From positions 1 to 47,259 of the forward strand of contig JAUWWQ010000033.1 in the NCBI GenBank assembly GCA_030616775.1: a DNA stretch of 47,259 nt, read 5' to 3'. The notes under the pieces are model-generated. The model was not told the DNA's origin. It did not search any database and saw only the letters and a program-made list of their open reading frames with translations. Every line of letters begins with the position of its first letter. Positions within the stretch are counted from its first letter, which is position 1. Of this stretch, positions 29,188 to 33,764 are shown in pieces. Origin of the DNA: Planctomycetota bacterium. GTDB taxonomy: Bacteria; Planctomycetota; Phycisphaerae; UBA1845. The position numbers and the translations under genes are program-made.

Positions 29188-30417
29188 ATGAGCGTAGCAC
29201 CAACAATCGAGCCGACAGACATGACCGGTGATCAGCACATTAACCTGGTCGAGCGTTATGCAGCCCATAACTATCATCCGCTGCCGATCGTGGTCGCCAA
29301 GGCCGAGGGCGTTTGGGTCGAAGATGTCGAGGGCAAGCGGTACATGGACATGCTGGCGGCCTATTCGGCCATCAACTTCGGCCATTGTCACCCCGAGCTT
29401 GTAGCCGTTGCGAAAGAGCAGCTTAAACGAGTGACGCTTACCTCACGGGCCTTCCACAACGATCAGCTAGGCCCAATGTGCAAGGAGCTTGCCGACCTCT
29501 GCGGCATGGAGGCCGTCCTGCCCATGAATACCGGGGCGGAGGGCGTCGAGACGGCTATAAAAACCGCCCGCAAGTGGGGCTACATGAAAAAGGGCGTCCC
29601 CGAGGGCAAGGCCAAGATCATCTGCTGCGCCAACAACTTTCATGGCCGGACCACGACGATCATTAGCTTCAGCACCGATCCGGCATGCCGGGCCGGTTTC
29701 GGTCCGTTTACGCCGGGCTTCAAGATCATCAAGTACGGCGACATCGGGGCGCTTGACAGCGCGATTGACGACAACACCGTTGCCTTTCTGGTCGAGCCCA
29801 TTCAGGGTGAGGCCGGTATCCTGATTCCGCCGCCGGATTACCTTAAACAGGTGCGCGGACTGTGCACCGAGAAGAACGTGCTGTTTATCCTGGACGAGAT
29901 TCAGTCCGGCCTGGGACGCACCGGCACAACCTTCTGCTGCGACCATGAGGGAGTCAAACCGGACATTCTCGTTCTCGGCAAGGCCTTGGGCGGCGGCATC
30001 ATGCCGATTTCCGCCATCGTTTCGAGTCGTGAGATTCTGGGCGTCTTTAAGCCCGGCGATCACGGCAGCACGTTTGGCGGCAACCCGCTGGCCTGTGCGA
30101 TTGCCCGCAAGGTCATCGAAATCCTCAAGACCAACAAGTATCAGGACAACGCCAACCAGCAGGGCGAGTACCTCTTTGGCAAACTAAGGACGCTCAAGAC
30201 GAACAAGGTCAAGGATATTCGCGGTCGCGGGCTGTGGGTGGGCATAGAGTTCCACACCTCAGCCGGTAAGGCCCGGGAGTATTGCGAAGAGCTCATGCAT
30301 GAAGGGATGCTCTGCAAGGATACCCACGAGCAGGTCATGCGCCTGGCACCACCGTTGTGCATCACCAGGGACGAGATCGACTGGGCCTTCGAGCGACTGC
30401 AAAAGGTGTTGGCGTAG
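29188..30417 (+). CDS. rocD: Ornithine aminotransferase
   Basis: PLP enzyme that moves the delta-amino group of ornithine to 2-oxoglutarate, giving glutamate semialdehyde. Family marks: HNYHPLPIVVAKAEGVWVED near the start, MNTGAEGVETAIKTARKWGY, the PLP-binding ILDEIQSGLGRTG and the lysine in LVLGKALGGGIMPISA, then STFGGNPLACAIA. 409 residues is typical. AAGG lies 7 nt before the ATG. It is followed by argF and arcC on the same strand with gaps of about 120 and 80 bases, suggesting one pathway: citrulline or ornithine breakdown, or proline/arginine interconversion. Confidence 0.93.
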   Translation: MSVAPTIEPTDMTGDQHINLVERYAAHNYHPLPIVVAKAEGVWVEDVEGKRYMDMLAAYSAINFGHCHPELVAVAKEQLKRVTLTSRAFHNDQLGPMCKELADLCGMEAVLPMNTGAEGVETAIKTARKWGYMKKGVPEGKAKIICCANNFHGRTTTIISFSTDPACRAGFGPFTPGFKIIKYGDIGALDSAIDDNTVAFLVEPIQGEAGILIPPPDYLKQVRGLCTEKNVLFILDEIQSGLGRTGTTFCCDHEGVKPDILVLGKALGGGIMPISAIVSSREILGVFKPGDHGSTFGGNPLACAIARKVIEILKTNKYQDNANQQGEYLFGKLRTLKTNKVKDIRGRGLWVGIEFHTSAGKAREYCEELMHEGMLCKDTHEQVMRLAPPLCITRDEIDWAFERLQKVLA

Positions 30418-30453
30418 AGCAGGTATCTGTGACAGGCATTGCAACCTGTAAAA

Positions 30454-30477
30454 TGACCGACTGGAAAGTCGTTCCCA
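30454..30477. repeat. Interspersed repeat copy before argF
   Basis: tgaccgactggaaagtcg followed by t/gtccca; the same block occurs at 25990-26013. The inner part is an inverted repeat (GACT-GGAA-AGTC). Confidence 0.75.
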
Positions 30478-30537
30478 CAGATGTGTGTTGCCGCGACTAC
30501 AATCCTCGCGGATTTATTTTTGGCGGAGTGTTGACAG

Positions 30538-31467
30538 GTGACTGCTGATCTCAAAGGCCGCAACTTTATATCAATGTTGGATTTCTCCAAGGAAGAGATC
30601 CTTACAGTTCTGGACACCGCTAAGCGGATGCGAACCGAAGGATATGGCGCGGAATCGTTGCCGCTGAAAGGCAAGACCCTGGCCATGGTCTTTCAGAAAC
30701 CCTCGCTTCGCACCCGGGTCTCGTTTGAGACCGGAATGACCAAGCTCGGCGGGCATGCAATCTACCTGGCTCCGAGCGACATCAGCCTGGGGAAGCGCGA
30801 GATCACCGAGGACATAGCCATCGTGCTGTCGCGCTACGCCGACATCATCATGGCCCGCGTTTTCGGCCATGACGTCGTAGACGAGCTAGCGAAGTACGCG
30901 ACGGTACCCGTAATCAACGGGCTGAGTGATTTCGAGCATCCCTGTCAGGTGCTTGCCGACTTCCAAACCATCCTGGAGCGCAAGGGCAGGCTGGAAGGCC
31001 TCAAAGCCTGCTATATCGGCGATGGAAATAACGTCGCCCATTCGCTGATGTTCGGTGCGGCCAGGATGGGCATGCACATGACCATCATTACGCCTCCGGG
31101 GTATGAGCCCAAGCAAGAGGTCGCAAAAAGGTCGATCGAAGTAGCGGCGTCGACAGGTTCCAAGATCACCGTGTCGAATGACTTGAGCGCCGCCGCCGGT
31201 GCGGAAGTTCTGTATACCGATGTCTGGGCGTCGATGGGGCAGGAAGGCGAGGTTGCCCAGCGTAAGAAGCTGTTCACGAAATACCGCATCGACGCCGAGA
31301 CAGTCAGTATGGCCAATCCGGATGCGATTATTCTCCATTGTCTACCGGCCCACTACGGCGAAGAGATCGACTATCGGACCTCGCGGCTGCCCAACTCCGT
31401 CATCTTTGATCAGGCTGAAAACCGCATGCACGCCCAGAACGCATTGATGGTTCATCTGGCGGGCTGA
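30538..31467 (+). CDS. argF: Ornithine carbamoyltransferase
   Basis: Catalyses ornithine + carbamoyl phosphate to citrulline, reversible and usable for catabolism. The carbamoyl-phosphate site KPSLRTRVSFE, the HPCQ motif (FEHPCQVLADFQ) and HCLPAH near the C-terminus are intact. 309 residues. The start GTG at 30538 has only a weak ribosome site. It sits between rocD and the carbamate kinase gene, the arrangement expected for a catabolic (ArcB-like) role, but anabolic and catabolic enzymes cannot be told apart by eye, so I keep the neutral symbol. Confidence 0.93.
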   Translation: MTADLKGRNFISMLDFSKEEILTVLDTAKRMRTEGYGAESLPLKGKTLAMVFQKPSLRTRVSFETGMTKLGGHAIYLAPSDISLGKREITEDIAIVLSRYADIIMARVFGHDVVDELAKYATVPVINGLSDFEHPCQVLADFQTILERKGRLEGLKACYIGDGNNVAHSLMFGAARMGMHMTIITPPGYEPKQEVAKRSIEVAASTGSKITVSNDLSAAAGAEVLYTDVWASMGQEGEVAQRKKLFTKYRIDAETVSMANPDAIILHCLPAHYGEEIDYRTSRLPNSVIFDQAENRMHAQNALMVHLAG

Positions 31468-31549
31468 CCCACTGGTGTATAATGGGGCGGTTAGGCCCCA
31501 GACATGCCGAATGATAAGTGTTCGCCGGCGGCGAACGCAGGATGTGCCT

Positions 31550-32509
31550 ATGGCAGATAGACCATTGATTGTCGCAGCACTCGGTGGCAACGCCATTTCC
31601 CGACCGGATGAGGAGGGCGATGTTGACCAGCAGTTCGCCAATTCGCGCATGACAGCCAAGGCGCTGGCCGACCTCGTCCAAGAGGGGCATCAGCTTGTCA
31701 TCACGCACGGCAACGGCCCGCAGATCGGCAACTTCCTGCTTCGCAACGAAGCCGCCGCCGGCATCATATATCCGCTGCCCATGGAGGTAGCCGTGGCCCA
31801 CGTCCAAGGCGGCATGGGCTACATGATAGCCCAGACCCTTATGAACGAACTTGCCAGCCGTGGAAACAATGCGGTCATCACGACGATCATCACGAACGTA
31901 CTCGTTGATCGCGATGATCCTTCATTTCGTAATCCGACGAAGCCAATCGGTAGGATGCTCACCAAAAATGACGCCGAGCGCCTTGCCAGACAAGAGGGCT
32001 GGACGATCAAGGAGATGGCCCCGGGCCGGTACCGGCGCGTGGTGCCCTCGCCGTGTCCCAAGCGGATCATGGAGATAGAGAACATTCGCCACGCGGTAGA
32101 GGCCGGCGACCTGCTGGTTGCCTGCGGCGGAGGCGGCATCCCGGTCGTGCGTGATCCGCAGAAGGGGCTCTGCGGGTTGGCGGCAGTGATCGACAAGGAC
32201 CTGGCCAGTGCTTTGCTCGCTGCCGAGCTAAGCGCCGACATGATGATGAACCTTACCAACGTCGATCGGGTCAGCATCAACTTCGGCAAGCCTGATGAGC
32301 AGCCCATCGACCGGATGACCGTTGAGCAGGCTCGCCGCTGGATGGACGAGGGGCAATTTCCACCCGGTTCCATGGGGCCGAAGGTTCAGGGGGCGATCGA
32401 CTTTCTCAGCAGTGTGGCCGGCGACAACGCCCGGGTCATCATCGGCCCGCTCGACCGGGCGACCGACGCCGTGGCCGGCCGCATCGGCACCTGCATCACA
32501 AAGTGGTGA
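31550..32509 (+). CDS. arcC: Carbamate kinase
   Basis: Transfers the phosphate of carbamoyl phosphate to ADP, releasing carbamate (ammonia and CO2). Motifs: IVAALGGNAI at the start, ITHGNGPQIGN, PMEVAVAHVQGGMGYM, VACGGGGIPVV, AVIDKDLASALLA and GSMGPKVQGA. 319 residues from the ATG at 31550, which has AGGA 8 nt upstream; the frame is open further upstream but the extra residues are not family-like. A TATAAT and a hairpin (TGGGGC-GGTTAG-GCCCCA) lie between argF and this gene, so a second internal start of transcription is possible. No arginine deiminase gene is present in the window. Confidence 0.94.
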   Translation: MADRPLIVAALGGNAISRPDEEGDVDQQFANSRMTAKALADLVQEGHQLVITHGNGPQIGNFLLRNEAAAGIIYPLPMEVAVAHVQGGMGYMIAQTLMNELASRGNNAVITTIITNVLVDRDDPSFRNPTKPIGRMLTKNDAERLARQEGWTIKEMAPGRYRRVVPSPCPKRIMEIENIRHAVEAGDLLVACGGGGIPVVRDPQKGLCGLAAVIDKDLASALLAAELSADMMMNLTNVDRVSINFGKPDEQPIDRMTVEQARRWMDEGQFPPGSMGPKVQGAIDFLSSVAGDNARVIIGPLDRATDAVAGRIGTCITKW

Positions 32510-32661
32510 TCACAACCCGCAGAGCTGACGTAGTACTAAGCGTCTACAAGCTCCCGAACCGCCCTGGATCGGGGCAGGTGAGTTATGGGGCCTTTGAGTA
32601 TACTGATTCCTCTGTGGGAGGTGCTTGACGTGGGTCTTGCAGTTATCCGGAGAGAAAGATC

Positions 32662-32829
32662 GTGACCGGAAAACTCGTTTGGGCTTTTGCGTTGATACCA
32701 CTGGCCGGGGTGGGTTTGAAGCTGGCTTATTGTTGAGGCCACCCTCTTGACTTGCTCGGTACGGGCATGGTCATCGCTGGTTTGCCCCTCGTGATCGGCC
32801 TCTCGATGAGATCAAGAGACCGTAAGTAA
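32662..32829 (+). CDS. Small two-helix membrane protein with an in-frame TGA
   Basis: The frame opens at GTG 32662, with GGAGAGA upstream. It reads MTGKLVWAFALIPLAGVGLK + LAYC, then TGA (32734-32736), then in the same frame GHPLDLLGTGMVIAGLPLVI + GLSMRSRDRK and TAA. Both halves are hydrophobic helices, the second ending in a basic anchor, so they look like one 55-residue protein with two membrane segments. The stop follows a Cys. About 21 nt after the TGA a hairpin TGCTC-GGTAC-GGGCA (32753-32767) has the loop composition and spacing of a bacterial SECIS element. Selenocysteine, a nonsense mutation and two chance short frames are the alternatives. A 26-codon frame (32585-32665) overlaps the start by GTGA. 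Confidence 0.35.
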
Positions 32830-32916: not shown

Positions 32917-33663
32917 CTATAGGCCCACCTTAATAGCTGCACCACACACAAGCACGACGAACCCCGCCAAAGCATGACCATATCGCTCGAAGCGGGTAAA
33001 CGCCATGCGCCCCACAGTGGCGTGCGCCATCACCACTATGGTAACCATCGTGGCGATCGTCGTGGTGCCAAATATCGCCGTGACCAGAACCACGTGCCAC
33101 ATTTGGCCCTTGGCGGCCGGATACATGAGTAACGGAATCAGCGGTTCGCAGGGGCCGAATAGGAAAATGGTAAAGAGCACCCAGGGAGTCATTGAACCGG
33201 TCCGTACGGTTCCGGGGCCGTGTTCGGACGCGGAGGAATCCGTTTGCTGATGGACGTGAACGTGCCCGCCGGCGTGCACGTGCCTGTGGGCATGGATGAC
33301 GCCGTCCACGTGGGCATGCGGGTGTGCATGTGGCTTATTGCGGATGGCCCGGCGCACGCCCCACACGAAGTAGACCAGCCCGAATGTCAAAAGCAGCCAG
33401 CCTGCAAGATCACCCCGGAGACCTTCGATGGCCTCGAGCTTCAGGAGGGCCACGCCGAATGCAATGCCGATAACTCCCAATGCGACGGAGCTGAGCACGT
33501 GGGCTATCCCACACACCAGAGTAATGATTACGGTCTTGGCGAGCGACCAGCCGCCAACCCGCGACATGGCTACAAACGGCAAATAGTGGTCGGGTCCCAG
33601 AACAGTATGAAGAAACCCGATCGACGCGGCTGTACCGCACAGAAGTGTAATGCCCTCAATCAT
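32917..33663 (-). CDS. NicO/UreH-like membrane metal transporter with histidine-rich loop
   Basis: About 248 residues with six predicted membrane helices. The first helix carries HTVLGPDHYLPFVAMSRVGGW, the H...GPDH motif of nickel/cobalt efflux and UreH-like transporters. Between helices 3 and 4 a loop holds eleven histidines in about 30 residues (PHAHPHAHVDGVIHAHRHVH...), a likely metal buffer. The next helix begins MTPWVLFTIFLFGPCEPLIP. Export or import of nickel, cobalt or a similar ion is inferred. The ATG at 33663 has GGGGA 9 nt upstream; a TTG at 33678 is a possible alternative. No urease or hydrogenase genes are adjacent. Confidence 0.82.
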   Translation of the reverse strand: MIEGITLLCGTAASIGFLHTVLGPDHYLPFVAMSRVGGWSLAKTVIITLVCGIAHVLSSVALGVIGIAFGVALLKLEAIEGLRGDLAGWLLLTFGLVYFVWGVRRAIRNKPHAHPHAHVDGVIHAHRHVHAGGHVHVHQQTDSSASEHGPGTVRTGSMTPWVLFTIFLFGPCEPLIPLLMYPAAKGQMWHVVLVTAIFGTTTIATMVTIVVMAHATVGRMAFTRFERYGHALAGFVVLVCGAAIKVGL

Positions 33664-33764
33664 GTCTTCATTCCCCAAGCCGCCCTTCTGATCGCAGGTA
33701 GTGTAGCACCATTGGCAACTGCCGCACCCGCATCAGGCAGCAGCCCAAATGGCTGACACGACGC

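Follow-up and report, generated by a model that had tools for sequence, protein, structure and literature searches.

A short reading frame interrupted by a UGA codon lies on the forward strand at positions 32662–32829 of the window, the whole 47,259-nucleotide stretch of DNA that was analysed. The frame starts with GTG, 7 nt downstream of a Shine-Dalgarno site recognized in the sequence (GGAGAG, 32649–32654, forward strand), runs through 24 codons ending with Cys to the UGA (32734–32736) and continues without a frame change for another 30 codons before the TAA stop at 32827; the frame, its UGA and the coordinates are exactly as an earlier note on this DNA had them. Decoding of the UGA as selenocysteine (Sec, U) gives VTGKLVWAFALIPLAGVGLKLAYC-U-GHPLDLLGTGMVIAGLPLVIGLSMRSRDRK, a product of 55 residues in which Sec is residue 25. 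On the basis of its homologues and of the pS and pN values given below, we annotated the frame as a putative selenoprotein gene of 55 codons including Sec. Its features are a first predicted membrane helix (32668–32727), the turn motif C-U-G-H-P (32731–32745), a second predicted membrane helix with a basic cytoplasmic tail (32743–32823) and a SECIS hairpin at the RNA level (32751–32769), all on the forward strand.

On one side of the gene lies a carbamate kinase gene in the same orientation, and on the other a convergent membrane permease gene (32917–33678, reverse strand), which is TauE-like by appearance, has a His-rich loop and shares its position with the congener only. The region just upstream (29188–32509, forward strand) contains genes for an aminotransferase (ornithine/acetylornithine type by appearance), an ornithine carbamoyltransferase-like protein and the carbamate kinase, and resembles ordinary arginine metabolism; in the congener, only the position of the carbamate kinase was seen to be kept.

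Homologues of the UGA-containing frame

Comparison of the read-through protein with 60 related genomes gave matches down to an E-value of 6e-29, and the strong matches almost all contained exactly one UGA, which, once the loci were translated, fell at one and the same codon within C-U-G-H/D-P; in nearly all homologues the start codon has a GGAG-like site upstream. A profile of 36 members (A1), used on 114 genomes of the same order, revealed 55 solid copies in 50 genomes, with UGA in 54 of the copies and Cys in the remaining one. In a second planctomycete order, sampled more densely, copies were found in 25 of 151 genomes and all 25 have the UGA, while a phylum-wide sample yielded matches in 15 of 392 genomes, chiefly of this second order, several of them being weak matches without UGA. 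Across the two orders, the homologues spanning this codon carry either UGA (about 80 copies) or Cys (a single copy), the two states that the earlier note had proposed to look for, and never Trp or Arg. Weak matches without UGA within long frames (L079–L081 and L083) were left out of the Cys homologues. The genome searches covered Planctomycetota, plus one wider scan sensitive to close relatives only, and a plasmid search using the protein gave no match.

Comparison with the congener showed a pS of 0.305 and a pN of 0.057 before the UGA, and a pS of 0.211 and a pN of 0.030 after it, demonstrating purifying selection on the amino acids on both sides of the codon. The earlier note had regarded a nonsense mutation as the main alternative; conservation across two orders together with purifying selection downstream of the UGA excludes a nonsense mutation or a pseudogene.

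The sole Cys copy stands first in a tandem pair in one genome (G038; L025 2913–3545). Its SECIS is degraded and its tail is long and rich in His; the other copy retains the UGA, and the two form a natural Cys/Sec pair.

The SECIS hairpin and the selenium machinery

The core of the hairpin, TGCTC-GGTAC-GGGCA (32753–32767), is a 5-bp stem closed by the loop GGUAC, and the GG at which the loop starts lies 21 nt after the UGA, in exact agreement with the earlier note; the stem reaches up to 7 bp in relatives. In the published bSECIS model, G occupies the first two loop positions and the loop lies 16–37 nt after the UGA (PMC13188914), a geometry that the hairpin fits, so that its assignment to the bacterial SECIS range is borne out. 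To this the alignment of 51 distinct sequences, gap-free from the UGA onward, adds covariation: 91.6% of the stem cells are standard pairs, and both sides had changed in 52 cells, compared with 18.6 ± 6.4 in shuffled alignments (0 of 500 reaching the observed value) and 18 or fewer in slid controls. At the outermost pair of the 5-bp core, for example, 24 sequences have U-A, 22 have C-G and one has G-C. Furthermore, the chance that the same codon is used for the same amino acid was 0.88–1.00 at codons +6 to +10, which span the hairpin, against 0.24–0.56 at nearly all synonymous codons elsewhere, the exception being the Cys codon at −1 (0.71). Most members have a GGU loop (68 sequences counted, one of them spurious), and single-sequence folding was uninformative (z −0.88). 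The hairpin is under RNA-level selection, its codons being nearly frozen at synonymous positions and its stem pairs covarying. A conserved RNA hairpin lacking a protein product was also considered and is ruled out by third positions, which vary freely outside the SECIS codons. Taken together, the occurrence of homologues in most of the relatives sampled, nearly all of them with a single UGA at this position, the covariation of the hairpin and the synonymous constraint place the observation far beyond chance.

In the Cys copy of G038, the stem contains a G-G mismatch and A replaces U in the loop (both read by eye). Such degradation is the expected outcome if Cys frees the RNA from its role.

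The host genome has selA, and the adjoining open reading frame encodes a SelB-like GTPase, judging by a reading of its sequence. Two SelD genes are present (C69:10000–10929 and C70:30451–31374; L088 and L089), one inside a 741-residue frame without UGA and the other of the Sec type, whose UGA lies within CAGUAGKLP and is followed 32 nt later by a hairpin with a GGU loop, identified by eye. An intact tRNA-Sec gene was absent from the 97.8%-complete host assembly in searches by Rfam model, pattern and BLAST, which returned only a 38-nt 3' fragment. Hence, of the sel genes for which the earlier note had suggested a search, selA, selB and selD were recovered but selC only as this fragment. The fragment (C24:2192–2229; L128 and L131) is a 97% copy of the 3' half of the tRNA-Sec gene in the congener and is preceded by unrelated sequence; it may be what is left of an attachment site or the result of a break in the assembly.

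Among the relatives, 30 of 40 passed the Rfam cut-off for tRNA-Sec, and each of the nine loci examined with ARAGORN was called as tRNA-Sec (anticodon TCA), including the full gene of the congener (G002). Of 60 relatives, 53 gave a selA match and 33 of these have the family, compared with none of the seven others (Fisher's exact test P = 0.0023, uncorrected for relatedness). One genome (G004) has a tRNA-Sec though no SelA match, so the absence of SelA may sometimes reflect an assembly gap.

Protein topology and relation to known systems

The turn motif is conserved among the 51 sequences, with Cys in 47, U in all 51, Gly in 48, His or Asp in 44 and Pro in 42. In three of the members without Cys at −1 (L033, L036 and L037), a different Cys lies no more than four residues from U, in one case in the reversed order U-C, and one member (L018) has no Cys near Sec. 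AlphaFold modelled the 55-residue form as two helices (residues 2–22 and 28–54) with the motif in the turn between them (pLDDT 78), and added a third helix in an 86-residue long form (pLDDT 68); a third helix follows the UGA in many members, and the Sec forms in the alignment range from 52 to 93 residues. Net charge averages +0.9 at the N terminus, +0.3 around Sec and +1.9 past the second helix, a bias that by the positive-inside rule would place the turn in the periplasm. The protein is thus probably a helical hairpin whose C-U-G-H/D-P turn faces the periplasm, according to models of moderate confidence. That the two halves form one hairpin membrane protein, as first read from the sequence, agrees with the model; the alignment and the modelled hairpin likewise support the Cys-Sec pair that the same reading placed between the two helices, but the adjacent Cys is common to most members rather than invariant.

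Searches with Pfam and NCBIfam models gave no family match, the best NCBIfam result among 36 members being a lone CopA match at E 0.0012. No match was found in the PDB and nothing significant in a Foldseek fold search; a thioredoxin-fold selenoprotein was considered and set aside, the model being an all-helical hairpin with no PDB match. None of the 119 prokaryotic selenoprotein families and subfamilies of the 2026 catalogue is comparable (Table 1 of PMC13188914), and no description of the family was found in the literature searched, which comprised sources other than subscription papers and preprints. These comparisons, together with the conservation of the UGA and its hairpin, indicate that the frame is very probably a real selenoprotein gene of a family absent from the databases searched.

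The candidate family shares with bacterial selenoproteins decoded by bSECIS and SelB the in-frame UGA, the downstream hairpin and a host with SelA, SelB and SelD; nearly all known families have Cys homologues, however, whereas the present one has almost none and is small and membrane-embedded. A vicinal Cys-Sec pair also occurs in the CU-motif selenoproteins SaoC, SaoL, KCU-star and MbdU, from which the family differs in giving no NCBIfam match and in carrying the motif between two membrane helices. Eukaryotic selenoproteins K and S are likewise small and membrane-anchored, but have a single helix, Sec near the C terminus and eukaryotic decoding; the likeness, drawn from their description and not from sequence, is that of small membrane selenoproteins, which differ in helix number, Sec position and decoding. 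Thioredoxin reductase ends in Gly-Cys-Sec-Gly, in which adjacent Cys and Sec followed by Gly form a selenenylsulfide. It is a large soluble flavoenzyme with no homology to the hairpin protein, and the analogy is a chemical one only.

Proposed function and rival readings

From established biology, SelB with Sec-tRNA-Sec would bind the hairpin, leading to insertion of Sec at the UGA. The protein would then form a hairpin of helices in the inner membrane, its two ends lying in the cytoplasm and its C-U-G-H/D-P turn at the periplasmic surface. There, the selenol could attack an oxidised substrate (a peroxide, a lipid hydroperoxide or a disulfide), after which Sec and the Cys beside it would join in a selenenylsulfide, as in the tail of thioredoxin reductase, to be reduced again by a partner; the His or Asp beside Sec could tune the selenol. 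Such a selenenylsulfide would not be universal in the family, since L018 has no Cys near Sec. By analogy, we give roughly even chances to the vicinal Cys-Sec pair acting as a redox centre on the surface of the membrane. Neither conserved neighbours nor any domain or structural match pointed to a specific reaction: a scan of 96 neighbouring genes revealed no Pfam family recurring more than three times, and the flanks are the same in the congener only, neighbours differing between genera and often being convergent.

The main rival to the redox centre accepts a real selenoprotein and takes it to be a hairpin that binds or transports soft metals (Hg, Cu) in the manner of MerT and MerF, with the Cys-Sec pair as a metal ligand. 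The motif itself had prompted the comparison: the vicinal CC-x-GPL of MerT resembles CU-GHPL here, and hhalign sets LAYC-C-GHPLDLLG on MerT ASTCCLGPLVLVA. In favour too are the small size of the present protein, its two to three helices and its adjacent chalcogens within a membrane turn, MerT, MerE and MerC being small helical membrane proteins as well, and the His-rich tail of the Cys copy of G038. The profile comparisons nevertheless gave no support to a MerT-like transporter, with hhalign probabilities of about 1% or less against MerT, MerE and MerC and Pfam matches to MerT, MerF or MerC in none of 36 members; adjoining mer or metal genes are not recurrent and the Cys partner is not invariant, and we consider a metal-binding role unlikely, at something like one chance among several.

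Much less probable is a selenium-sensing leader, in which read-through of the UGA-SECIS frame would regulate a neighbouring gene without making a functional protein. The very small size of the frame and the GTG start at this locus would suit a leader, but the neighbours are not conserved across genera and are often convergent, purifying selection downstream of the UGA is strong, and many members continue into a third helix there. Lowest of all we rate a UGA read otherwise, by near-cognate read-through or reassignment, or arising by nonsense mutation, which would be highly improbable: the missing intact tRNA-Sec gene of the host assembly speaks for such a reading, against which stand the retention of the UGA in about 80 copies with a covarying SECIS, the selA, selB and selD genes of the host, the tRNA-Sec of 30 of the 40 relatives including the congener, Cys as the sole replacement seen, and the absence of the gene where selA gave no match.

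Returning to the selenoprotein with a redox-active turn, we somewhat favour the view that the locus belongs to a Sec-dependent family of minimal membrane redox hairpins, widespread in two planctomycete orders or more and nearly lacking Cys forms. Selenoprotein discovery leans mainly on Cys-containing homologues and on reasonably long genes (PMC13188914), and all new families of the deep-Sep paper have Cys homologues (PMC12013277). With a single Cys copy beside about 80 Sec copies, and with only 24 codons ahead of the UGA at this locus, the family would probably be missed by both routes, and a Sec-only family of such size would be hard to find by a Cys-homologue approach of the deep-Sep type. 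Its near-complete failure to revert to Cys suggests chemistry beyond that of Cys, and the family may help to explain why these planctomycetes retain the Sec machinery. It would also give biochemists a very small membrane module with a Cys-Sec pair and, if other lineages hold Sec-only small proteins, known selenoproteomes would be systematically incomplete at their small, membrane-bound end.

Two UGA-containing copies were found in each of four genomes, in tandem in G459 (L118 1125–1740) and also in G005, G017 and G035, indicating that the family has paralogues; one of the G459 copies carries CUVPP in place of CUGHP.
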